In this document: positions 19,413-63,735 of the stretch, one piece after another
Position numbering within the stretch: position 1 is the stretch's first letter
Layout: the number at the start of each line of letters is the position of its first letter
Source of the DNA: Desulfobotulus pelophilus
GTDB lineage: Bacteria > Desulfobacterota > Desulfobacteria > Desulfobacterales > ASO4-4
DNA length: 64,000 nucleotides
Assembly (NCBI RefSeq): GCF_026155325.1
Contig: NZ_JAPFPW010000005.1
Span: 1-64,000 of the forward strand
Direction: 5' to 3'
Translations under genes and position numbers: made by a program
The notes under the pieces: model-generated
Databases searched by the model: none
What the model was told of the DNA's origin: nothing
What the model saw: only the letters and a program-made list of their open reading frames with translations

Positions 19413-19747
19413 TTCAGCACATTTTTTTAACTTTCATGCCTGCCAGATAAATGCAGAGGCATCCAAGCTATTTACCCGTGACGCAATCTTATTCTTAGAG
19501 CTTCTTGCCCTGTACGGAAGCGGCAAAAACTCCCCGCCACAGGCAGGATAAGCTTTTTGATTGTCATAGCAAGCGTAAGCACGTTGCCTTTGTGGCGGCT
19601 CAGACAGTTTGCCGCTTCTTTCGCACAGGGCTTCAAAGCTCTGATCCGAAACGATTGCAACGTCACTTGCAAATAGCCAGGATGCCTTGCAGCCGTACGA
19701 AGCTGTTGAAATTAGAGCGGTGACAATTTTGAATAAAATGTGCTGAA
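19413..19747. repeat. Long palindromic dispersed element, copy A
   Basis: The core 19457-19687 (231 bp) is one imperfect inverted repeat. The left arm runs AGGCATCC...GACGCAATC...AGAGCTT...GGAAGCGGCAAA...CCGCCACAGGC and the right arm is its complement, leaving a loop of about 45 bases near 19547-19590. Outside, TTCAGCACATTTT (19413-19425) and AAAATGTGCTGAA (19735-19747) form a perfect 13-bp outer pair. A second 231-bp copy with no indels lies at 52393-52623 (about 91% identical by hand count). It fills the gap between merR and the acyl-CoA dehydrogenase gene. It could be a MITE-like element or a structured RNA; no transposase is present. Confidence 0.85.
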
Positions 19748-50690: not shown

Positions 50691-52271
50691 ATGTCTATCC
50701 AGCTAGAACTAATTGATTTTATAAAAAAAACCCTTCCAGTTGAAGCCGATGACCCCAAGGCAGGTAAAGAAAGCGAACCTCTGTCTCCATCCGGTTTCGG
50801 ATCGGATGTCAGCCGGGCTGTTCATTCCGCTCTGATCCTTCGACCCATCTTTGAGCTGGAAGCCCGTCGTTTCGGTCAGGGTGAAGAAGAACTCAGCGGC
50901 GAGATCTGGATGCGGGTTGATCTGATGTGGACGGCATTTGCCATTCTCGATGTCATCTCAGAGCTGACCGAATACCAGATCGGTGTCACCCGCAGTGAAG
51001 TAACGCAAAAAATCCTTCCCCTCCTCCGTCAGCAGGTTGCTGCAGAAAACAGATTTTTCCCCGATGAAGCCCTTGAAGAAGTAAGCTCTAAAATTTTTGA
51101 CCATCTCACAAACAGAAACAACCGCTACCTTCCCTTTTCCTGTCCCTTTTTTGATGCCGATGCAGGACGCTACCGCACCCGCCGCTTCTGGCTCATCAAA
51201 AATGTCTATACGGGCGAAGGCAGCGAGGCCCTGTTCGCCCTCACGGAAGAAGGCTACACAGCCTATTTCGGCCTGCACGAAACCAGTGCCCTGGATGCTG
51301 CTGCCATCGGCAACCTGCGCATCAAGCTGCTCATTGAAAGGGGCAATCTGGATGATGCCATTGCCGTGGCCGAAACCAACCGAAGGCATTGCGCCCGAAA
51401 GGCAGGAGAAGTGAGAACGGTGCGCCGCCAGATCAGCCGGAACATCAAGTCCGTGGGTTTTGACCGGGTTCAGGCCCTGGCCGAAGAGGGTGTCAATCAG
51501 GTCATGGATATCCAGAAGGAAGGCAACCGTCTGCACAACCTTGTCATCGAAAACCTGCATGGCGGCGGATACAGGGGCCACAGCAGCACCCTTTACAGGC
51601 TGGCCGACAAGCTTGAAGGCTTAAGTAACCAGCTGATGAAGCTTTCTGGCCAGCTCCAGAGCCTGCCCGAAGACTACCAGAAACACAGCCACAAACTTTT
51701 CAGAAAAGAAGCCAGCGGCGTATTTCCCGGCATGGATGAGGTCATGGAAAGGATTTTTTCTCTGGATGAGGAAAACGCCGCCCGCATGGGGAAGGAATTC
51801 ATCGCCCGCATAAATCCTCCGGCACAAAGGCCTCTTTTTGATCCGGCATCGGTGATGGAAGCCTGTGAACGCGCCCTGGAGCGCAGGAATCCGCCGGGCG
51901 ATCAGACCCAGGTGCTCCTGGAGGTGGACGGCGAACCCCTTATATGCTTTCAGCCGGAACTGAATGAGAAAGTAATGCAGCAGGCCTTTCACCTGATCCA
52001 TCATCTCCTTGGCCGCAAAAAAGAGCTGAGACTGGGGCAGGTTCTGGAACAGGCCCTGACGGAGTCCGATGAAAGCCTTTTCCCCGTTGCAACGGCCATG
52101 GCCGTTTTTCAGTGCCTTGTGGAAAAACGCATTGCAGACAGATACGGCATCCATGTGGACATGCCCGACCCGCAAAGCCGCATCACCATGGATCTCGGAA
52201 GCGGAAGACGCTACCGGGGCCATGAACTGCGGCTGAGGCAGCGGGTTCTTTCCGGCAACCCAAGGGAATAA
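50691..52271 (+). CDS. jetA: Wadjet-like JetA (kleisin/MukF-like subunit)
   Basis: A 526-residue protein starting at ATG 50691 (CCAGGAG site). Assignment rests on operon order and shape: an N-terminal helical/winged-helix region (RAVHSALILRPIFELEAR, DLMWTAFAILDVISEL), a middle with ALTEEGYTAYFG, a long helical arm (RNIKSVGFDRVQALAEEGVN), and a C-terminal winged-helix-like part. In Wadjet/MksBEFG systems this subunit bridges the SMC heads. Cannot separate JetA from MksF by eye. The downstream jetB is separated by 400 bases, which hold palindrome copy B. Confidence 0.72.
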   Translation: MSIQLELIDFIKKTLPVEADDPKAGKESEPLSPSGFGSDVSRAVHSALILRPIFELEARRFGQGEEELSGEIWMRVDLMWTAFAILDVISELTEYQIGVTRSEVTQKILPLLRQQVAAENRFFPDEALEEVSSKIFDHLTNRNNRYLPFSCPFFDADAGRYRTRRFWLIKNVYTGEGSEALFALTEEGYTAYFGLHETSALDAAAIGNLRIKLLIERGNLDDAIAVAETNRRHCARKAGEVRTVRRQISRNIKSVGFDRVQALAEEGVNQVMDIQKEGNRLHNLVIENLHGGGYRGHSSTLYRLADKLEGLSNQLMKLSGQLQSLPEDYQKHSHKLFRKEASGVFPGMDEVMERIFSLDEENAARMGKEFIARINPPAQRPLFDPASVMEACERALERRNPPGDQTQVLLEVDGEPLICFQPELNEKVMQQAFHLIHHLLGRKKELRLGQVLEQALTESDESLFPVATAMAVFQCLVEKRIADRYGIHVDMPDPQSRITMDLGSGRRYRGHELRLRQRVLSGNPRE

Positions 52272-52392
52272 AAAATATACCGTCTGAGTAGCTTCAAAAG
52301 TTACTTTACGACAAGACGCCGCAACACGGCGTGCGTTGCAATTCAGTACCATTTGCGCTTGGTTAACTGCTACAACTGTAAGGCCCGTGCAC

Positions 52393-52623
52393 AGGCACCC
52401 GCGCTATTTGATCGTGACGCAATCTTATTCGTAGAGCTTCTTGTCCTGTGCGGAAGCGGCAAAAACTCCCCGCCACAGGCAGGATAAGCTTTTTGATTAC
52501 CATAGCTGGCTTGAGCACGCTGCCTTTGTGGCGGCTCAGACAGTTTGCCGCTTCTTTCGCACAGGTCTTCGAAGCTCTGATCCGAAACGATTGCAACGTC
52601 ACTTACAAATAGCCTGGGTGCCT
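52393..52623. repeat. Long palindromic dispersed element, copy B, between jetA and jetB
   Basis: 231 bp, the same length as the core of copy A (19457-19687), about 21 differences by hand count. The ends are AGGCACCC and GGGTGCCT, whereas copy A has AGGCATCC and GGATGCCT: one base pair changed on both sides (T-A to C-G). The segments GGAAGCGGCAAAAACTCCCC and its partner GTTTGCCGCTTC are unchanged, while the loop (~52498-52523) varies. Sits in the 401-bp gap 52272-52672, which holds no gene; it splits what is normally a tight operon. Confidence 0.85.
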
Positions 52624-52672
52624 TACACTGAAACCAAACAACTAAAATTACAGTGAAGGGTGCACCTTTTTT

Positions 52673-53467
52673 ATGGAACACCATACAGAATCCTTTCATG
52701 GGGCCAGCCGCCTGATTTATTTAAGCCTCCTATACAGCAGCGGCAGCCGCAGGGCCATGGCCCCCTTCAGTGCCGAGATGGCCGAACTCATCCAGCGTTT
52801 TCAGTCCCAGGACAGCTTCCGCCAGATGGTGGAAACGGGCCTGAAGGCCATGGAGCTGAGGCTCCTTGCCCTGGAAGACAAGGGCCTTCGCCTTTCCGCC
52901 CGTCGCTCGGACAGTTTTTTTGCAGCCACCCTCACGGATTACGGAAAACTCCTTGCCAGAAGCGACCTCAAGGCAGCGGAAATCCTTCCCGTTCACTGCG
53001 CCATTGCCACGGCCTTTTTCCCGACGGAGGCGGATCTGGATGCTCCGGTGGAAGACCTCGGTGCCATTGTCATCATGGATGTCATGGATATCCTGAAACG
53101 CTTTGCCCTTGCAGAATCCGCCCTGCCCGATGGAGAAACAAGGCTGCATCCCCAGGTGAAGAGCGTTGCGGAACGCCTTCGCCTTCTGCCCGAAGACAAT
53201 CCGGACAGACAAAGGGCGGGCAGCGGTTCAAGCTGGGTGGAAATGATTGCCATCGTACTGGATCACATGGTGGAAACGGGCTATCTGCTGGCCTTTGAAG
53301 AAACACCTGGGGAGGTGGAATACAGGCCGACGCCTGCCTATCAGACCGCCCTGAGGGAAGGTATTGTCTATGCTTTCCACGCCTTCCGGGATATTGTGAC
53401 CACCGCTCCCCTTCAGGAAAAAAAGACAGCCGGAAATGCGGCCGGGGAAGGGAAACCCCATGTTTAG
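52673..53467 (+). CDS. jetB: Wadjet-like JetB (KITE/MukE-like subunit)
   Basis: A 264-residue mostly helical protein with winged-helix character (ELIQRFQSQDSFRQMVETGL, LRLLALEDKGLRLS, then SSWVEMIAIVLDHMVETGYLL). This matches the small KITE-type subunit (DUF4194/MksE-like) of SMC-kleisin systems by position and look. The 3' end overlaps jetC by 8 bases, so the two are coupled. The start is uncertain: only AAGGG at a long distance precedes ATG 52673, and the ATG at 52757 (MAPFSAEM) is possible. Confidence 0.7.
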   Translation: MEHHTESFHGASRLIYLSLLYSSGSRRAMAPFSAEMAELIQRFQSQDSFRQMVETGLKAMELRLLALEDKGLRLSARRSDSFFAATLTDYGKLLARSDLKAAEILPVHCAIATAFFPTEADLDAPVEDLGAIVIMDVMDILKRFALAESALPDGETRLHPQVKSVAERLRLLPEDNPDRQRAGSGSSWVEMIAIVLDHMVETGYLLAFEETPGEVEYRPTPAYQTALREGIVYAFHAFRDIVTTAPLQEKKTAGNAAGEGKPHV

Positions 53468-56400
53468 ACTCAATAAATTCTTTGTAAGCGATATCAAGGC
53501 AGGGGACAATATTCTGCGCAATGGCTTTGTGCCCGTATTCCGGGAGGATGGGGATGCGGATCATGGTGTTCTTTTTGCTGCCAACGGCACCTGTAAAACC
53601 ACCCTCTTATCCTTTATCCTCAGCGTGTTCAGCCCATCCAGACAGCGCTTTGTGCAGCACCTGCAATCCGGCGGGGACAAGAGTCTGGACCAGTATCTGA
53701 TTCCCGGCCGTCCTGCCATCGTCATGCTGGACCTTGCCATGGTACTGCAACCCACCCTCTTTGAGACAAAACCCGTGGATCATCTGGTTTTGGGCCAGCT
53801 TCTCTATCGCCACAGCAACACGCCGGACAAAGTTGATCGCACTTTTTTTCTGGCCAGATCCGCTGATTTTTTTGACACCCTGCGCAGCCAGTGGGACGGA
53901 CTTCTCGATCAGGAAAAGCCCTATCAGGCCCTGAAGGATTTCATGGCTCCGCTTATCCAGCAGACCTCCAGCCAGAAGGAATGGGAGGAAACCCTGGAAG
54001 AGCTTGGGCTTGATCCCTGGCTCATTGACCGTCAGGTGGATTTTGCCCGTACGGAAGGGGGCATCAAGGATGCCTTCCGCTTTAAATCCGAAGGGGATTT
54101 TTTAAGTTTCTTCCTTGGCTGCGTGACGGATATGGAAGCTGCCAAAGAATTGCGCGAACGCATGGATCAGGACTTAAGCAAAATGAAGGACCGCCCGAGA
54201 AAACGGGCCCAGCTTGATGCCGTACGCAGCCTAAAGGAGCGCATCGCCGACTTTGACACCATCGCCGCCCTCTGGCGCAGTGCAGGAAAGGCCATTGAAA
54301 AATGGCGGATGCAACTGGGAGAGGCCAGCCATCTTCTCCATGGTGCAGAAGCTTCTTCCCGGACAGAGCTGGAAGAACTTGAAAATGAGCAGAAACATGC
54401 CGAAGACTCTTTGCGGACCCTTCGGACCGGACTGGAAACCACCCGGAGCAATATCCTTTATCTGGAGCACTTCTGCATATCCAGTGCCGTAGAAGAAGGA
54501 GAAAAAAGCCTCCACAGAAATCATGGGGAAAGCGAGGCGCTAAAGGCTGAAAAAAACGCCCTCCTTGCTGCGGACTTCATGGCGGATATCCGTAAAAATC
54601 AGGCCGAAGCGGACACAAAGGATAAGGCTCTCGCCGAAGCAGGCAAAGAAATCAATCCCTTGCAGGAAAAATTAAAAACCCTTGCGGCCCAGTACCATCT
54701 GCGTCTGGATGCAGACCGCCACGGACTGAAAGCCGCCATGGAAAATCTGTGCCGGGAAGAGGAAGAAAGAAAGCAGCATCAAAGGGCTGTGGAAAAAAAA
54801 CAGCAGGCAGGGGAAATCCTCAGGCAAGCCCTTGAAAAGGAGCTTGAGAATCTGAACGGTCGCATCCGGGGAGCCGAAGCTGGCCGTACCTTGCTGCCCC
54901 TTGATCCTGGAGAAGAACCCTCCGCCGCCCTGGACCGGCTCCATGGGGAAAAAGCGGGCTTTGAAAACCGCATCATTATGGTTGAAAAGGAAATGAGCGC
55001 CGGAGAAGAGGCCCTGAAGGCCCAGGATCGCAACTGGCGTCGTTTGCTGGAAGAGTGTTCAAAAGCACAGGGAAAACGCAGCGAATCCCTCAAAGCCATG
55101 GAAGAAGAAGCGGATTTACGGCGGCATCTTCTGGAAGATCCCCATCTTGTGCGCATTGCCGGAACCCGTGATATGGAAATCAGCTCGGCAGAGCTCCTTT
55201 CCCGGCTGGATGACACCCTGGTGCGCAGCGAGGAACGTCTCAGGAAAAAGGAAAGGCAGACCCTTCAGCTGGAAGAAAAGCTGGAAGCTCTGGATCAGGG
55301 AGGCGGCCTTGCCGCCGATGACCTTACCCGCCGCCTTCTTTCCTATTATCATAAAAAAGGCCATGAAAAGGGTATTGCCCCCGGAGAACTCAAGTCCTAT
55401 CCCGAATACCTTGCGGATCTCTACCCTGCGCCGGAAATCCTGGCCCGGTACATCGAAGGGGATCCGGCGCGGTTCACGGGCATGATGGCGGCCAGTCAGG
55501 ATGTCATTGAAAGCATCCTTGAGATGCCACCACCTCCCTGGCTGCACCGGCCCGTGGTGATTTCCACCCCCTGTGCTCCGGAGGCGGTCAGCACTGTGGA
55601 GCAGACCCTGATCCGCCCCCTGACGCCCGAGGTCTATTCCAGACAGCACATGGAAAAGGTGAGGGAAGAATACCAAAAAACGCTGGAAAAGGTGGCAGAG
55701 GAAAGGGAAGAAGCCCGGAGCCTCCTTAAAGCCATGGAAGGCGTAAGCCGCAATCTCCATGCCTATCAGGAGCGTTTTCCCGATGCCGGAGCTGTGGCCG
55801 CCCTCCGTGAACGGGCAGATGCGGGGGAGAAAAAACTTTCTGAAATCAAAGCTGCCATTGCTGAGGCTGAAGCGGGCATGGAAGCCCTCAGCCGCTCAAA
55901 AACAGATCTGGAATCCCGCTACCGCCATCTGAAAGACCAACTCGCAGACCTTTCTCGGATGCTCCAGCAGGTGAACACCTGGGTTTCATCCTTTGCGGAT
56001 CTGGCCGCATGGGAGGAGGAAAGGGAAAAAAAGACCCTTGAAAAAGGAGCCGTGGAAAAGGCCATCCGGGCGGATGGAAAGACCCTTACGGAACTCAAGG
56101 AAAAAGAACTCCGGATTTTTAAGGATATCCACATATGCAAATCCGATCTCAAAGGGCTGGACGAAAAGGCCTCTGAAATCATGCGGCCTGAGGATACGGA
56201 ACTGAAGACCGAAGAGCAGGAAGAAGCCCTGTCCATGGATCTTCAGACCCTGCTCCATCTTCATAGGGCCGCAAGGGAAACCCTGAGACAGATGAGCCAT
56301 ACGCTCGGTATAGACCATCTTGGCAGAGAGCTTGAAGATCTTCAGGCACGCATTGCAAGGCTTCAGTCCGAATTCGAGGCCTTTGGCCGCAGCCACAGCT

Positions 56401-57881
56401 TTGATGGAAAAAGTGCGGAAAACTGGGCCACGCGGGGCTTCAGGGATAGAAAGGCGTACCTTGAAAGCCTTTCCGGGAAACTGGAAGGGCTGAAGGAAAG
56501 CCGCATCCGCATGGAAACGGAACTGGAACACAAAAAAAAGGATCAAATCCGCAGCGAGGCCCTTCTTTCGGAACAAAAAGCCAAAGGTTTTCCCCAGGAT
56601 CTTAGGGAAGAAAACCTGAAGGATCAGGACACAGATGCGCTGCTGCATCGTCTGGAAAGCGAAAAAAGAAGGCAGCAGACCGACTGCGAAACCCTTTTTT
56701 CCCGCTCTGAGCGCCTCAAAGAGAAGCTCAGCTTCCTTGAAAAATGGCGTCAGGAACTTCGCATTGCCATGGCGGAAAACCAGACCTTTGAACCCCTCTG
56801 GGATCAGGATTCTCCCCGTCATCCATGGCCGGACCTGCTGGAGCCGGGCAGAGACAGGATGGCTTCCATCCGGCAACTGCTGGAAGAAATAAGGGAAATG
56901 GCCGCAGCCGAAAGAAAGGAGCGGGAAACCGGAGAAAACGCCCGCAGACGGATGCGCAGTGCCTTTGACCGTCTCCAGACCCACCTTCAGGATGATGCCT
57001 GCCGCCATGACCTCCCCGCTGTGGTGGATGCCCTGAGAAGCCACGATGCCGAATCCTTAGGGCTTCAGGCCGAAGACCTGATCCGGCGCTGCGAAGATAT
57101 CGCCCGTAACATTGAAATGGATCTGAAAATTACCCAGCGCTTCATGGACAGTCTTGTGGACAGGCTGCTGCAGCACAGCCGGGATTATCACCAGAAACTG
57201 CAATCCGCCGCAAGGGAGCTTCTTCCGGAGACCGTTTTCATTTACGGCGGAAAACCCATTCTTCGCACAGGTGTCCGACTGGATTTTGCCCGCTACCAGG
57301 ATGCCTTCCGCCAGTCTGTGGAAAACTGGCTTTATCAGCTCATGCAGCAGAACCGCCTGCCGGAAGTCAATCCAAAGGCAGGCAACGGCCTTGGCTCTGA
57401 GCTGCTTTATCAGCTTCTGGGGGCCGCATCGGGCCGGGAGAATTTCGGTATCCGCATGCTGAAATGCGATGACTCCGGCAGCACCTACGAGCCCGTGGGA
57501 AAGGATCTCGGTTCCGGAGGCGAAGCCCTCACCATTGCGGTCATGCTCTACACCCTGCTCATCTCCATGCGAAAAAAGCGCAACAGTGCTTCCGAAGGCA
57601 GAATTCCCGCATTCCTCATTCTGGACAATCCCTTAGGCGTCTGCAACCGCTCGGACTTTGTGGATGCCCAGCTCAAGGTGGCGGGAAACATGGGCCTTCA
57701 GTGCGTCTATTTCACCGGCATCCATGACCGGGAATCCTTAGAACTTTTTGAACTGCGCACAGCCATCCGCAAAGGGGATAAAAAACTTGAAATCGACGGT
57801 ATTTCCTATAACTGCCTTGAAGTCACGGAGCTGAATGTGGAAAAAACAAAGAGGCAGGTGAACCACCATCAAGCCCCCTGA
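53460..57881 (+). CDS. jetC: Wadjet-like JetC, SMC/MukB-type ATPase with long coiled coil
   Basis: A 1473-residue SMC-like protein starting MFRLNKFFV at ATG 53460. Head halves flank ~1200 residues of charged heptad coiled coil. The Walker A is AANGTCKTT (residues 40-48): the lysine is kept, but the usual Gly before it is Cys and the first Gly is Ala. The ABC signature is SGGEALTIA (~1353) and the Walker B is FLILDNPLG (~1383), with Asn where the catalytic Glu normally follows Asp. Type I JetC is nearer 1100 residues, so this is a long, divergent member. Predicted to load on and extrude DNA with JetA/JetB. Confidence 0.78.
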   Translation: MFRLNKFFVSDIKAGDNILRNGFVPVFREDGDADHGVLFAANGTCKTTLLSFILSVFSPSRQRFVQHLQSGGDKSLDQYLIPGRPAIVMLDLAMVLQPTLFETKPVDHLVLGQLLYRHSNTPDKVDRTFFLARSADFFDTLRSQWDGLLDQEKPYQALKDFMAPLIQQTSSQKEWEETLEELGLDPWLIDRQVDFARTEGGIKDAFRFKSEGDFLSFFLGCVTDMEAAKELRERMDQDLSKMKDRPRKRAQLDAVRSLKERIADFDTIAALWRSAGKAIEKWRMQLGEASHLLHGAEASSRTELEELENEQKHAEDSLRTLRTGLETTRSNILYLEHFCISSAVEEGEKSLHRNHGESEALKAEKNALLAADFMADIRKNQAEADTKDKALAEAGKEINPLQEKLKTLAAQYHLRLDADRHGLKAAMENLCREEEERKQHQRAVEKKQQAGEILRQALEKELENLNGRIRGAEAGRTLLPLDPGEEPSAALDRLHGEKAGFENRIIMVEKEMSAGEEALKAQDRNWRRLLEECSKAQGKRSESLKAMEEEADLRRHLLEDPHLVRIAGTRDMEISSAELLSRLDDTLVRSEERLRKKERQTLQLEEKLEALDQGGGLAADDLTRRLLSYYHKKGHEKGIAPGELKSYPEYLADLYPAPEILARYIEGDPARFTGMMAASQDVIESILEMPPPPWLHRPVVISTPCAPEAVSTVEQTLIRPLTPEVYSRQHMEKVREEYQKTLEKVAEEREEARSLLKAMEGVSRNLHAYQERFPDAGAVAALRERADAGEKKLSEIKAAIAEAEAGMEALSRSKTDLESRYRHLKDQLADLSRMLQQVNTWVSSFADLAAWEEEREKKTLEKGAVEKAIRADGKTLTELKEKELRIFKDIHICKSDLKGLDEKASEIMRPEDTELKTEEQEEALSMDLQTLLHLHRAARETLRQMSHTLGIDHLGRELEDLQARIARLQSEFEAFGRSHSFDGKSAENWATRGFRDRKAYLESLSGKLEGLKESRIRMETELEHKKKDQIRSEALLSEQKAKGFPQDLREENLKDQDTDALLHRLESEKRRQQTDCETLFSRSERLKEKLSFLEKWRQELRIAMAENQTFEPLWDQDSPRHPWPDLLEPGRDRMASIRQLLEEIREMAAAERKERETGENARRRMRSAFDRLQTHLQDDACRHDLPAVVDALRSHDAESLGLQAEDLIRRCEDIARNIEMDLKITQRFMDSLVDRLLQHSRDYHQKLQSAARELLPETVFIYGGKPILRTGVRLDFARYQDAFRQSVENWLYQLMQQNRLPEVNPKAGNGLGSELLYQLLGAASGRENFGIRMLKCDDSGSTYEPVGKDLGSGGEALTIAVMLYTLLISMRKKRNSASEGRIPAFLILDNPLGVCNRSDFVDAQLKVAGNMGLQCVYFTGIHDRESLELFELRTAIRKGDKKLEIDGISYNCLEVTELNVEKTKRQVNHHQAP

Positions 57882-58097
57882 AAAAATAAAAGCCGTACTG
57901 GCTGCAGGAGACAAGGGGCTGGATCTGCTGATATACTCTGGGTGGTCATTCTTGATACATGGGGCAGTCTTGAAACGATATGAAAAAGTTCTTGACCCGT
58001 GTGTTTGAAATTTTCGAATGTTTCACGGTTGACCGCTTGGAGTAAAATAAAGATATACTGGAAAAACTGCTTTTCCTCACCACAAAAGGTGCAAGCC

Positions 58098-59849
58098 ATG
58101 AAAAAAAGAATCCTCTACGGCGAAGCCAATTATCCAGCCATTGTTCGTGAAAACGGCTACTTTGTGGACAAGACTGCCTACATCGAAAAACTGGAATTCG
58201 TTAAAAATCCCGTCTTTCTGCGTCCAAGGCGTTTTGGAAAATCCCTTCTCTGCACCATGCTGGAGTCCTACTATTCGGTTTTATACAAAGAAAACTTTGA
58301 AGAGCTTTTCGGCCACACATGGATTGGCAAAAACCCAACGCCCCTGCACAATACTTTGCTTGTGCTGCATCTGGATTTTTCCACCATTGAGACCGGTGAG
58401 CTGGAATTAATGGAAAAAAGTTTTGATCACACAGTGAACCTTGCCCTTCAATCCCTGGTGAACAGAAACATCTGTTTTTTAGAGGATAAGCCGCTGCTGA
58501 ATCCGGAAAACAGCTCCGTATCCAATCTCAAGGCCGTTATCAATAAGATCCAGGACAACAAGCTACCGCCCCTCTATGTCATCATCGATGAGTACGACAA
58601 TTTTGCCAACCAGCTCATCACAGGCCATAAAGACCTTCTTTATAAGCAGCTCATGGCCGATGACGGTTTTTTAAAAACCTTTTTCAAGCTTTTAAAAGAG
58701 GGCCGAAAAACCGGAACCATCCACAATGTTTTCATCACAGGCGTTCTGCCCGTCACCATGGATGAACTGGCTTCGGGCTTCAACATTGCCACCTTCATCA
58801 CCCTGAACCCCAATTTTGAAAACATGATCGGCTTCACCCAGTCCGAAGTGAATTTACTTCTCGATGACATTTACAGAGATTATGAAATCCGCCCGGATAC
58901 CCGCAATGAAGTACAGGATGTCATTAAAAATCAGTATAATGGCTATCATTTTATCGATCCTGAAGGCGAGGCCGTCTATAACTCCACCATTCTTCAATAT
59001 TTTCTGAGCTGGTTCTGTGAATTTAAAACCATGCCCAAACACTTAACGGACATGAACCTCAAAACCGATATCCTGTGGATCAAAAGAATCACCGGCTCCA
59101 ACCCTGAGCTTACCCAGGATTTTGTCACCCAGCTGACAACCCAGAACAGCATTGACTATGACGACACCCTGCTCACCCAGAAATTCAACATGTCCCGTTT
59201 TTTTGAAAAGAGCTTTTTTCCCATCTCCTTTTTTTATCTGGGGATGCTTACCCGAAAAAATGACTTTGCCCTAACTCTCCCCAACCTCAACATGAGAAGA
59301 ATCTTTGTGGAATACTTCAATGAACTCCACCACATTGACGTTTCCACCCGCTACGGGAACATGATGCAGCATTTTGTCAGAACCCTTGACCTGAAATCTC
59401 TGTTTGCTGGCTACTGGCAGGAATACGTTTCCCAACTTCCCGAAGCGGTCTTTTCCCAGGTAAACGAGAACTTCTATCGCACCACCTTCTATGAACTCTG
59501 TTCCCGCTATCTTTCCCGCTGGTTCACCTGGAATGTGGAAAGGTCCTACCCCAAGGGCAGAACAGATCTGGAGTTTGTGGGCAAATTCAATGAATGCTTT
59601 GCGGGCATCCGTATGGTCATCGAGTTCAAATACTTTTCCAATGCCGCCTTTAAAAAATTCAATACCAGCATTGAAAACTTCACCCTGATTCCTGAAGATA
59701 CGGAGCAGATGGCAGGCTATGTGGAAGGGCTTAAAAAGGAATACCCGGAAGCAAAGATCAGCCAGCATGTGATTTACTGTTTTGGCAATGGGGGATTCAG
59801 GGTATTTGATACGGACCCCCTTCCGGCATCAAATGAACCGGTAAGCTGA
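58098..59849 (+). CDS. AAA-ATPase-like protein with C-terminal PD-(D/E)XK nuclease domain
   Basis: A 583-residue protein of the AAA-ATPase_like + DUF1703 family, common in horizontally moved regions. N-terminal NGYFVDKTAYIEKL, then P-loop RPRRFGKSL (~45), Walker B-like VIIDEYDNF, VFITGVLPVT sensor region; the C-terminal nuclease-like part holds RTDLEFVG and MVIEFKYFS (D...ExK). Start at ATG 58098; an upstream frame extension from 57999 is not supported. Its presence between jetC and jetD suggests insertion; a role in the defence locus is only inferred. Confidence 0.85.
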   Translation: MKKRILYGEANYPAIVRENGYFVDKTAYIEKLEFVKNPVFLRPRRFGKSLLCTMLESYYSVLYKENFEELFGHTWIGKNPTPLHNTLLVLHLDFSTIETGELELMEKSFDHTVNLALQSLVNRNICFLEDKPLLNPENSSVSNLKAVINKIQDNKLPPLYVIIDEYDNFANQLITGHKDLLYKQLMADDGFLKTFFKLLKEGRKTGTIHNVFITGVLPVTMDELASGFNIATFITLNPNFENMIGFTQSEVNLLLDDIYRDYEIRPDTRNEVQDVIKNQYNGYHFIDPEGEAVYNSTILQYFLSWFCEFKTMPKHLTDMNLKTDILWIKRITGSNPELTQDFVTQLTTQNSIDYDDTLLTQKFNMSRFFEKSFFPISFFYLGMLTRKNDFALTLPNLNMRRIFVEYFNELHHIDVSTRYGNMMQHFVRTLDLKSLFAGYWQEYVSQLPEAVFSQVNENFYRTTFYELCSRYLSRWFTWNVERSYPKGRTDLEFVGKFNECFAGIRMVIEFKYFSNAAFKKFNTSIENFTLIPEDTEQMAGYVEGLKKEYPEAKISQHVIYCFGNGGFRVFDTDPLPASNEPVS

Positions 59850-60036
59850 GCCCTTCCTGGACATGACGGATAAGCGGCTCTCAGGCCAAACAGGTTTCTC
59901 TGTGCATACCCGGATAAAAGCAGGCTTTCAAGTTTACAAAGCCCACATGCCATGTTACATTTCTTAAAGTATTATCCCATAAACAACTATTATAAAATGA
60001 CATACATATTACATACACACTATCAGAAAGCAGAAC

Positions 60037-61161
60037 ATGAAGGAGTGCATGACATATAAATCCGGAAAATTCATTTTCCAGGAAAAATATGACTCTCAAA
60101 TAATAAGGGAGCTGTTTATCAGGGCAATGGTTCTGAATGAAACCATTGCAGAGCTGCCCGTTTTCTCCGGTCTGGCATCACGACTGGAACCAGAGATCAT
60201 GTACAGCTCCATTGCCGGGACCGCCGCCATCGAAGGCAACCCCATATCAGAAGCAGATGTCAGAAAAATATCAGAAGGCCATGATCTTATTGATTATTCT
60301 GCCAAAGATCAGCAGGAGATCAAAAATCTTATTGAGGCCTATGATTATCTCTCTGAGAAAAAAATCATCTCTCAGCCTTTTCTGATCAGCGAACAGCTCA
60401 TCCGGAATCTGCATAAAATCATTACCACTAATGTGCCCCATGAATACAACATACCTGGCAATTACCGAAACGGAAGGGTGGAAGTCGGTGACAAAGCCCA
60501 TGGCGGCGTATACAGGCCTCCCAAATGCCTGGATGACGTCAGCCTGCTGATGGCTGCCTTCACAGAATGGATGAACAGCCATGAAATACTGGAATTGCCC
60601 CCCCTCATAAGGGCACCCCTTGCACACTATTATTTATGTGCCATCCATCCCTTCTGGGACGGAAACGGAAGAACAGCCCGACTGCTGGAAGCCCTTATCT
60701 TGCAAACTGGCAAGCTGCAATACATACCCGGAGAATTATCAAACTATTATTACAGAAATATAGACAATTATTATAGTGCTTTTTCAAAAACAAACAAACT
60801 CGGAAACGATGCCACTCCTTTTTTAGAATTTTTTCTGGATGCTGCCATATTTTCCATGGAAAAAATTAAAAAAATAATAATTTCTTCCATAAAAATCTTT
60901 GCATTAAAAGATCATTACACAGACCAGAACCAGAAAAAAGAGATAAACAAAAGGCATTTTGAGCTGCTGACTCTTCTTCTCGATTATCCACCTGATTTTG
61001 TCTTTTGTATAAAAGATCTCATATCAAAAATGCCCTTCAGGCTTCTCTACAGCAGTATCAGCAGCCAGACAGCCCGAAGAGACCTCGCCAAATTATCAGA
61101 AATGGGGCTTCTCCTGAATAATAACGGTGAATACTCACTGAATTTTCGCTTTTCCGGGTAA
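60037..61161 (+). CDS. Fic-family AMP-transferase
   Basis: A 374-residue Fic protein: the active motif HPFWDGNGRTAR (H204) is intact. An N-terminal inhibitory helix motif TAAIEGN (E66) makes it a class II, self-inhibited Fic. An N-terminal Fic_N-like segment and a C-terminal winged-helix (~300-370, SSQTARRDLAKLSEMGLL) complete the common DUF4172-less architecture. Transfers AMP to target hydroxyls. AT-richer than its neighbours, with different codon use, suggesting recent arrival. Confidence 0.9.
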   Translation: MKECMTYKSGKFIFQEKYDSQIIRELFIRAMVLNETIAELPVFSGLASRLEPEIMYSSIAGTAAIEGNPISEADVRKISEGHDLIDYSAKDQQEIKNLIEAYDYLSEKKIISQPFLISEQLIRNLHKIITTNVPHEYNIPGNYRNGRVEVGDKAHGGVYRPPKCLDDVSLLMAAFTEWMNSHEILELPPLIRAPLAHYYLCAIHPFWDGNGRTARLLEALILQTGKLQYIPGELSNYYYRNIDNYYSAFSKTNKLGNDATPFLEFFLDAAIFSMEKIKKIIISSIKIFALKDHYTDQNQKKEINKRHFELLTLLLDYPPDFVFCIKDLISKMPFRLLYSSISSQTARRDLAKLSEMGLLLNNNGEYSLNFRFSG

Positions 61162-61277
61162 AATACCCAAAGGTCTTTTTTGGATTATTCTGCCAGCAGA
61201 AAAACACTTTTTTTCACCCCACCAATAGATTTCGATTGATTGTCAATTGAATTTGGCAAAGAAGCCGTAAAAAAATT

Positions 61278-61353
61278 TCCCACGGTATTTCCTATAACTG
61301 CCTCGAAATCACGGAGCTGAATGTGGAAAAAACAAAAAGACAGATAAACCATG
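61278..61353 (+). pseudogene. Remnant copy of the jetC 3' end
   Basis: Encodes GISYNCLEITELNVEKTKRQINHG followed by TGA (given here as GISYNCLE-ITELNVEK-TKRQINHG). The jetC end at ~57799-57867 encodes the same with Val for both Ile and HH for HG. The six or so base differences are silent or conservative, so it derives from a related jetC under selection and not from recent copying. The TGA overlaps the ATG of the next gene. Upstream homology fades at 61268-61280. Confidence 0.8.
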
Positions 61354-62064
61354 GGTGATATCATCTGTTCATGGAAGGTCTGTCTGCCTGGAGGTAAGTC
61401 CCTTGTCTGGCCCGATGGCTGCCGGGATCTGATTGCCATTCTTCCGAAAAATCAGGCTCCAGAGCTTATCTGCAGCGGGCTGGATGCCTCTCCGAGAATT
61501 GTGACCTGCCCGGAGGAAACCCGTTTTGTGGGCATCCGGCTTGCGCCGGGCCTGACCTTCCCATGGGAAAAGGATGACCCCGGCTCAACGTGCAGGGATC
61601 TGTCCATCTCCCCATACCTGCCATCCTGGAAGGGTTTCTGTTTTGCAGCAGATCATGATGAAATTCAGAATGCACTTTTAGAGGTGGTATCGCTGGCAAA
61701 CCCTGCCCCCCATTGGATTGCAGACTACCTGGCTGAAGTGAGGGCAGGGGGAAAGAAAAGGGCCACGGCACGTAGTCAGCGAAGCATCAGGAGACAGCTG
61801 GTTCGGTTCACGGGAGCATCATCCAGCTACTGGAAGGGGCTGGCCCGGGTACGGAAGGCAGGATCTGCCATCGCCACCTCGGCCATCTCCCTGGCCGATA
61901 TTGCCGCAGACCACGGTTTTTCAGATCAGGCCCATCTGAACAGGGAGATCAGACGCTGGTTCGGCTGCACCCCCAACATGCTTCGTGTGAACAGGGAGCT
62001 GTCCGCAACCCGGCTGACAGCTCCCGATGCATTCCCCAATCCTCAGCCAAGAATATACTGCTGA
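61351..62064 (+). CDS. AraC-family regulator with DUF6597-like sensor domain
   Basis: A 237-residue protein. N-terminal sensor part: SLVWPDGCRDLIAIL and FVGIRLAPGLTFPW are typical of the short DUF6597-type domain. C-terminal AraC HTH: RSQRSIRRQLVRFTG, then SLADIAADHGFSDQAHLNREIRRWFGCTPN (shown in part). The usual ~20 residues before the DUF6597 core are missing, and the start lies inside a jetC-tail remnant, so its N-terminus may have been cut by the rearrangement. Probably regulates the adjacent divergent VOC gene, overlapping it at the 3' end. Confidence 0.8.
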   Translation: MGDIICSWKVCLPGGKSLVWPDGCRDLIAILPKNQAPELICSGLDASPRIVTCPEETRFVGIRLAPGLTFPWEKDDPGSTCRDLSISPYLPSWKGFCFAADHDEIQNALLEVVSLANPAPHWIADYLAEVRAGGKKRATARSQRSIRRQLVRFTGASSSYWKGLARVRKAGSAIATSAISLADIAADHGFSDQAHLNREIRRWFGCTPNMLRVNRELSATRLTAPDAFPNPQPRIYC

Positions 62065-62444
62065 AACTCCGCTGCCGGAGGGATGGGATGGTAGCAGTAA
62101 ACAAGGGCACCGGAGGGATCCAGAAGCCCGAAGCCCCTGTCTCCCCATGGATGATCTTCCAGAGGCATGATGACAGACAGACCCGCCTGATCATGCAGCC
62201 TCTCGTACATGGCATCGGCATCCGTCACAAGGACATTCAGAAAGATACCTCCGGTAAAAGGAACCATGCCTTCCTGGGGCTTCATAAGGCAGATTTCCGG
62301 CCCGGACGGGGAAGCTCCAAGGCGAAGCACCACGTACCAGCCGCAGTCGAAGGCCGGGCGGGCATCAAAGTGTGAGATATAAAATCCCTTTGTTTCTTCA
62401 AGATTTTGCGTGACAATGGTTGTGCTGACGGATTGAATTTCCAT
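62043..62444 (-). CDS. VOC-family (glyoxalase/bleomycin-resistance-like) protein
   Basis: A 133-residue VOC protein: two beta-alpha-beta-beta-beta units, e.g. VTQNLEETKGFYISHFDARPAF and NVLVTDADAMYERLHDQAGL (shown in part), with RGFGLLDPSGALVYCY at the end. The family covers dioxygenases, glyoxalases and antibiotic-binding proteins; function cannot be told. Start at ATG 62444 with GGAGG just upstream. AraC-VOC pairs are common and suggest stress or xenobiotic handling. Confidence 0.85.
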   Translation of the reverse strand: MEIQSVSTTIVTQNLEETKGFYISHFDARPAFDCGWYVVLRLGASPSGPEICLMKPQEGMVPFTGGIFLNVLVTDADAMYERLHDQAGLSVIMPLEDHPWGDRGFGLLDPSGALVYCYHPIPPAAEFQQYILG

Positions 62445-62664
62445 GTCTTCCTCCAAGGGTTCCTGTTTTCCTCAATACAAAACGCTGATGGGCAGAATAG
62501 CTCAATATATGTGGCAGAATCTTGAATTTTTTGGCCAAAAAACCAGCTGTTCTGACAGGAATGCCCCTATACCTTCATGGCAATGGCAGGCTTTCAGCCA
62601 AAAAAAAGCTTTTTTAGTTTCTGACCGACAAAGAACTCTAATAACCCGGCAAAGGATATTCTCC

Positions 62665-63735
62665 ATGGAAAACATCCTCCATGAAGCTGTTTGGGAAGTG
62701 ATACGATGCAGCAAACGCAAAAAGATTGAAACGGTCCTTCTGCTTGAAACCATCAGAAGAAAAGCCCCTTCATCCATAGGGGATTTCGAACTCCCAAAAC
62801 GCCTTTTTGATATCCTGAAAACCCTTGAAAAAGAAAAACTGCTGCAAATTCCCAAAACTAAATCTGATTACAAAACCGGCCTTCCCCCTTATGTCACCGC
62901 ATTACGACCGGAAGAAGATGCCGCCCTAATTCAAAAAAAGACAGAACTTTACAATTTACGCCACCTGACCGCCTGGGAACCCACATACATGGCAGCCTTT
63001 GCCTGTCATCTGAAAACAGAAAAAGAACTGAAACAGGCCATCAGGGTCAACGATTATCTCCTGAACCGAAAAACCGATACAAAGATCATCCCCCACAGGG
63101 AAAGGGCCTTACAGATCTTTGAAAGTGAAAAGGCCCTGGATGGCTATAGCCGCAAGGGACTTTTTGGTGGCAGAATCACCCTTGAAAATCTGGACTGCTT
63201 TTACTGCCCGGAACCCCTTCCCTTCCAAAGCCCCTCACCGGATAAGGCCCTTCTTTCAGGAAAACCCCTTCTGGTTGTGGAAAACGCCAATACTTACTGG
63301 AGCTGCTGCCAGGCCAATGGGGATATGTGCATTTATGCAGCAGTGGTATATGGCAAGGGTTTCACGGTATCGGCCAATGCAGGGGAATATGCCAATGACG
63401 GGCTGGAACAGATCAGAGCAGATCTTGAAGCCATGGAAATCCTCTATTTTGGAGACCTTGATCCCACAGGCATTGCCATTCCCACCCGAATCAATGCCAT
63501 GAGGAAAGAAAAGGGCCTTCTTCCACTTCGACCAGCCCTTTCCCTTTATAAGGCCCTCCTTGAAAAAAACCTCCCTACGCCCTATGACAGATCCCAGACC
63601 AAGGATCACGATCCCATGGCTGCCAAGCAATGGCTGGGGGTTGAACTGGCAGAAATTTATCTTGAAAAAGCAGAAATTCTTCGCTGGCCCCAGGAGGGGC
63701 TGACCTCTGATGATATCCGCAGGATTTCGGTTTAA
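62665..63735 (+). CDS. jetD: Wadjet-like JetD (TOPRIM nuclease subunit)
   Basis: A 356-residue protein. N-terminal helical/winged region (MENILHEAVWEVIR, GDFELPKRLFDIL), then a C-terminal TOPRIM-like domain (DUF2220 type) with LLVVENANT (E206) and YFGDLDPTGIAI (D264, D266), matching JetD, the nuclease that cleaves plasmid DNA in Wadjet. The frame is open from 62443, but its first 74 codons look non-coding; the ATG at 62665 has AAGGA upstream. It lies 4.8 kb after jetC, in the same direction, so the jet operon is split by an insertion of four genes. Confidence 0.78.
   Translation: MENILHEAVWEVIRCSKRKKIETVLLLETIRRKAPSSIGDFELPKRLFDILKTLEKEKLLQIPKTKSDYKTGLPPYVTALRPEEDAALIQKKTELYNLRHLTAWEPTYMAAFACHLKTEKELKQAIRVNDYLLNRKTDTKIIPHRERALQIFESEKALDGYSRKGLFGGRITLENLDCFYCPEPLPFQSPSPDKALLSGKPLLVVENANTYWSCCQANGDMCIYAAVVYGKGFTVSANAGEYANDGLEQIRADLEAMEILYFGDLDPTGIAIPTRINAMRKEKGLLPLRPALSLYKALLEKNLPTPYDRSQTKDHDPMAAKQWLGVELAEIYLEKAEILRWPQEGLTSDDIRRISV

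Follow-up and report, generated by a model that had tools for sequence, protein, structure and literature searches.

An intact type III Wadjet locus of Desulfobotulus pelophilus with probable passenger genes at the 3′ end of jetC

Introduction

Are the genes that separate jetD from jetABC in Desulfobotulus pelophilus working parts of a Wadjet system, or did they enter the locus as passengers? The question arises from a stretch of 64,000 nucleotides of this species, hereafter the window, in which intact homologues of jetA, jetB, jetC and jetD occur in order between positions 50691 and 63735. The four genes lie on a single strand, as expected for Wadjet type III, with jetD starting 4.8 kb after jetC. 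A previous reading made from the sequence alone had given this order, and the open frames are present at the places that it gave; it had further considered a new Wadjet subtype, possibly one that recruited an AAA-ATPase and a Fic gene. Wadjet type I, or MksBEFG, is presumed to restrict small circular DNA, and a review of 2023 noted that mostly type I had been studied, types II and III being still to be characterised (PMC10586767). Kleisin, KITE, SMC and Toprim nuclease subunits are found in type I as they are here. The reading that we favour, with a probability of about 0.82, is that of an intact type III Wadjet whose intervening genes are passengers and not subunits, and whose jetC 3′ end is a repeated landing site.

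Results

The core genes and their assignment

The first gene, jetA (50691..52271, + strand), codes for 526 amino acids, a kleisin-type subunit by family, and matched the PADLOC profile JetA3 at 1.6e-30. The product of jetB (52673..53467, +; 264 aa) is a KITE-type subunit by position and homology, that of jetC (53460..57881, +; 1473 aa) an SMC-type ATPase (JetC3, 1.7e-73), and that of jetD (62665..63735, +; 356 aa) a Toprim nuclease by family (JetD3, 5.4e-56). The JetC3 match spans residues 40-1441, i.e. nearly the full length of the protein, in which the ABC signature SGGE and the Walker B motif LDNP are both intact. The PADLOC type I and type II models scored far behind type III for JetA, JetC and JetD; on JetD, the type I models fell far below JetD3. 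Furthermore, JetD matched Pfam JetD_C at 24.2 bits, above the cut-off of 22 bits, and its Toprim motifs are intact, the catalytic E and the DxD (VENA and GDLD) being aligned in 23 sequences. These profile matches, much stronger than chance would give, show that JetA, JetC and JetD belong to Wadjet type III, and they bear out the sequence-only reading both in its Wadjet assignment and in its identification of jetD.

That reading had counted the length of JetC, about 1473 residues, as an oddity by comparison with type I (around 1100 residues). Type I JetC/MksB indeed has about 1111 aa (PMC10123090). The JetC3 models that were matched are 1451-1486 positions long, so that 1473 residues is a normal size for type III, and the argument from size to a new subtype was rejected. 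With normal JetC size and with A, C and D falling in type III by PADLOC profiles, the proposed subtype did not hold. The same subunits in the same order are found in the type III locus of Polaromonas plasmid pPNAP03, where JetA has around 500, JetB 240, JetC 1440 and JetD 335 residues; the genes of that locus overlap, and jetC and jetD have no intervening DNA, whereas the window has 4.8 kb of cargo there.

JetB of the window gave no direct match to any PADLOC JetB3 model. It is homologous to the JetB proteins of 21 syntenic loci (E values down to 1e-117, and 1e-17 to 1e-9 for outgroups), and JetB3 models were reached by three of the 21 aligned syntenic JetB proteins, its own not among them. 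Prediction of the JetB fold, from one and then three sequences, gave a mean pLDDT of 44-46, too poor for a fold search, and sequence searches of the PDB with JetA, B, C and D returned no usable relatives.

The start of jetD was placed at the ATG at 62665. An earlier start at 62443, giving a frame of 430 aa, is too early: the JetD proteins of both congeners begin at the codon equivalent to 62665, the upstream 222 bases are not JetD, and the extension overlaps the start of the VOC gene. At the other end of the locus, the gap of 401 bp between jetA and jetB contains an interspersed genome repeat (52388..52627, +). This intergenic repeat of about 240 bp is matched, in full or in part, at around 40 further places in the 3.66-Mb genome, the best match being 92% identical over 240 bp; one lies in the window at 19452-19691.

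Selection on the core was estimated among three congeners (G000, G001 and G002). The genes jetA to jetD contain no stops, and omega ranges from 0.14 to 0.34 (0.15-0.25 for jetA), which shows purifying selection on all four. Because jetD has no stops, a low omega and intact motifs, its displacement in Desulfobotulus has taken place without loss of constraint. The JetA, JetC and JetD trees, built from 20 loci, had 12 to 15 of 17 splits in common. Well-supported conflicts of JetD with JetA/C fall mainly within one genus, g296, where JetD pairs locus L063 with L066 and JetC pairs L064 with L066; on one deep branch, JetD disagrees with JetA/C with moderate support.

The Walker A motif of JetC

The canonical Walker A motif, with glycine before lysine, is absent from JetC of the window, in which a cysteine (Cys45) replaces this glycine to give NGTCKTT. 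The motif NG[T/S]CKTT was found in 18 of 18 complete JetC proteins of the Desulfobacterota clade. Identities between these proteins go down to 33% and the cysteine is kept throughout; its conservation over such divergence argues against decay. Glycine occupies the position in four outgroup JetC proteins and in three further relatives from plasmid records, and the Polaromonas motif reads NGGGKTT as against NGTCKTT in the window. The type III profiles, which JetC of the window passes, do not require the Walker A glycine. Since the usual glycine before the lysine is missing, ATPase activity cannot be assumed, and a cysteine in the P-loop could change the ATPase kinetics or confer thiol sensitivity. 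Departures in the P-loop are not unheard of in the superfamily, as the type I MksB of Pseudomonas aeruginosa PA14 was reported as seeming to lack Walker A (PMC10123090).

The genes between jetC and jetD

The four unrelated genes noted earlier between jetC and jetD were confirmed by Pfam. Two of them form the cargo proper, an AAA-ATPase_like and PDDEXK_9 protein (58098..59849, +; PF09820 at 5.8e-49, PF08011 at 4.9e-17) and a Fic protein with a C-terminal HTH (60037..61161, +; PF02661 at 1.6e-16). An AraC-type regulator (61351..62064, +; PF12833 at 8.8e-14) and a VOC/glyoxalase-fold protein (62043..62456, − strand; PF00903 at 1e-8) make up an older insert. The G+C content of the AAA and Fic genes is 42-45%, against 54-57% for jetABC.

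The AraC and VOC genes occupy the same place in all three congeners, and in G001 a 5′ fragment of araC still follows on from an intact jetC. For these two reasons jetC-araC-VOC-jetD was probably the ancestral order in Desulfobotulus. The remaining content varies. The G001 locus holds a 1129-residue PKD-type protein found only there, together with AAA and without Fic. In G002, AAA is cut to around 310 bp and followed by a transposase, Fic lies on another contig, and a second Fic/Doc gene, present only in this genome, precedes jetD. The AAA/PDDEXK_9 gene belongs to a dispersed multicopy family, with three copies 86-92% identical on another G002 contig. The four intervening genes are cargo and not Wadjet subunits on three comparative grounds: they vary among the three congeners, AAA is multicopy elsewhere, and 11 of 17 related loci have jetC next to jetD. 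The AAA, AraC and VOC genes have nevertheless been retained since before the split of G000 and G001, and omega for AAA is about 0.2 (0.21 among congeners); they are therefore somehow useful to the cell.

One region of G002 (L099; G002:C2:127000-146000) carries three close AAA/PDDEXK_9 relatives within 12 kb, among frames of 545-549 aa, and successive copies likewise occur in genomes G573 and G008.

The insertion site at the 3′ end of jetC

The far side of the insert in the window is marked by an orphan copy of the end of jetC. This 70-bp copy (61282..61351, +) is 91% identical to positions 57796-57865 inside jetC (57796..57865, +; repeat family D1) and is the sole extra jetC match in the genome. 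G002 has exactly the same orphan copy; the G001 repeat is longer (220 bp, 84%) and reaches across the junction of jetC and araC. A comparable arrangement was found in g296. At L063 and L066, an insert of 3.5 kb begins directly past the jetC stop codon and codes on the opposite strand for an ATPase of 899 aa and a protein of 151 aa; its far side bears a 38-bp copy of the jetC end (89%). Locus L062 provides the empty site, being contiguous across this point without the 3.5-kb insert.

The alignments thus show duplicated jetC ends and an empty site. Because Desulfobotulus and g296 are set apart on the trees by lineages in which jetC and jetD are adjacent, insertion at the end of jetC took place at least twice among these sulfate-reducing bacteria. 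By this sequence comparison foreign DNA has landed repeatedly at the 3′ end of jetC, an independent genus having the same footprint with different cargo. No recombinase genes were seen in the inserts; the cargo may have come in by integration at the 3′ end of a gene, by homologous import or by duplication.

Spacing of jetC and jetD in related loci

We compared 17 fetched Desulfobacterota loci outside Desulfobotulus with intact jetC and jetD, a sample and not a survey. The two genes are adjacent, from overlapping to 42 bp apart, in 11 of them (L055, L056, L058, L061, L065, L067, L068, L069, L070, L079 and L080), and 356 bp separate them in one (L059). The other five, all from g296, carry cargo at the junction, with gaps of 1.1-6.0 kb and with HipBA, SixA-like and NUDIX genes in varying combinations. 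Outside Desulfobacterota the gap data consist of three plasmid loci, from Polaromonas, Rhodococcus and Streptomyces, in all of which jetC and jetD are contiguous. Scans with JetC alignments recovered two loci in genome contigs and none in viral contigs, and phage records gave no match. In the scan of the phylum, a single JetC3 model was insensitive and JetD3 performed better.

Four of the g296 loci (L060, L063, L064 and L066) have genes for a SixA-like phosphatase and a NUDIX protein directly ahead of jetD. The NUDIX stop overlaps the jetD start, so that jetD looks translationally coupled to the cargo in this genus. A type III-like JetABC in genome G048 (L021:5195-11713) had no JetD homologue within the 18-kb stretch searched. 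In G002, jetABC and jetD lie on separate contigs (L018 and L019; contigs C6 and C17); the transposase after the AAA remnant contains an N and is followed by aroE-type genes, and the split may reflect either a real separation at an IS or the way the assembly was joined. In the same genome jetA is separated from jetB by a nucleotidyltransferase gene (NTP_transf_5/AbiEii-like; L018:2996-3460), so inserts are taken up at the A-B junction as well.

Discussion

The locus is an ordinary type III Wadjet core in which the jetC-jetD junction and the P-loop are unusual. By analogy with type I (PMC10586767), JetA, JetB and JetC would form an SMC-type complex expected to extrude DNA loops; once a small circle was fully reeled in, the Toprim nuclease JetD would cut it, resulting in plasmid restriction. 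Passenger DNA most likely arrived between jetC and jetD in an ancestor of Desulfobotulus, the AraC and VOC genes first, followed by AAA/PDDEXK_9 and, in some species, by Fic and others, and the orphan copy of the end of jetC was left behind. The jetD gene would then be expressed separately from jetABC. Given the continued purifying selection on the core genes, JetD is most likely still in use even though its gene lies 4.8 kb downstream of jetC.

Could the AAA/PDDEXK_9 and Fic proteins be working subunits or regulators of the complex, and the locus a new subtype after all? Both genes are flanked by core genes and share their orientation, and AAA is itself under purifying selection. We nevertheless hold this to be very unlikely, because AAA is truncated in G002 and Fic missing in G001 with jetA-D intact, close AAA copies occur away from jet loci, jetC is followed directly by jetD in most of the related type III loci (11 of 17), and g296 carries different genes there; the suggested recruitment is not supported, the two genes not being conserved even within the genus. 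It is doubtful, too, that the insertion uncoupled jetD from jetABC in a system being lost, which would make the locus a decaying remnant. Within g296, jetC is broken at L062 and only jetD remnants persist at L082, and the contig split in G002 could be read in the same way; all four jet genes are, however, open and constrained in three Desulfobotulus species. More ambitious, and in our opinion improbable, is the combined proposal that the thiol P-loop of the clade makes a redox-controlled or kinetically altered extruder and that the 3′ end of jetC serves specifically to receive defence or toxin cassettes, with JetD set apart and acting in trans.

Two further possibilities concern how the cargo arrived and what it does. 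The duplicated jetC ends could stem from local tandem duplication, or from homologous import of a stretch with the jetC-araC junction, rather than from targeted integration at a gene end. The varying repeat length (38, 70 and 220 bp), the inserts without a recombinase gene and the G001 repeat, which spans the jetC-araC junction on both sides, all speak for such an origin. The same gene end is, however, affected in two unrelated lineages, and the L063/L066 insert starts right after the jetC stop, like integration at gene 3′ ends; we regard duplication or import as a real contender at somewhat less than even odds. Compatible with our preferred reading, and put forward tentatively, is the idea that the cargo forms an embedded second line of defence, toxin-antitoxin or anti-phage modules that gain from the setting of a defence operon. 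The cargo includes HipBA, Fic, a PD-(D/E)XK nuclease with an AAA domain and an AbiEii-like nucleotidyltransferase; the VOC, AraC, PKD-type, NUDIX and SixA-like proteins are, on the other hand, not obviously defensive. A precedent is TgvAB, an anti-phage pair of extra genes embedded in the type I restriction cluster of a Vibrio (PMC11411939). Both loci have extra genes inserted among the subunit genes of a defence operon; unlike the TgvAB case, the insert of the window lies at the jetC 3′ end with a footprint of duplicated sequence, and the defence role of its cargo is putative.

In place of a new subtype, the type III reading raises the questions of why insertions recur at the end of an SMC motor gene and whether a Wadjet nuclease can still work when its gene stands apart from that of its motor. 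With the P-loop glycine before the lysine lost throughout the clade, the tolerance of an SMC ATPase can also be put to a simple test.

The g296 cargo at L063 belongs to a two-gene module, a protein of about 900 aa with a KGGVGRT P-loop accompanied by one of 145-151 aa (L063:8631-11783 and L101:2977-6122), neither occurrence giving a confident Pfam match. A related module stands between housekeeping genes in genome G475 and the module is therefore independent of Wadjet; it is a candidate for an uncharacterised defence or conflict module.
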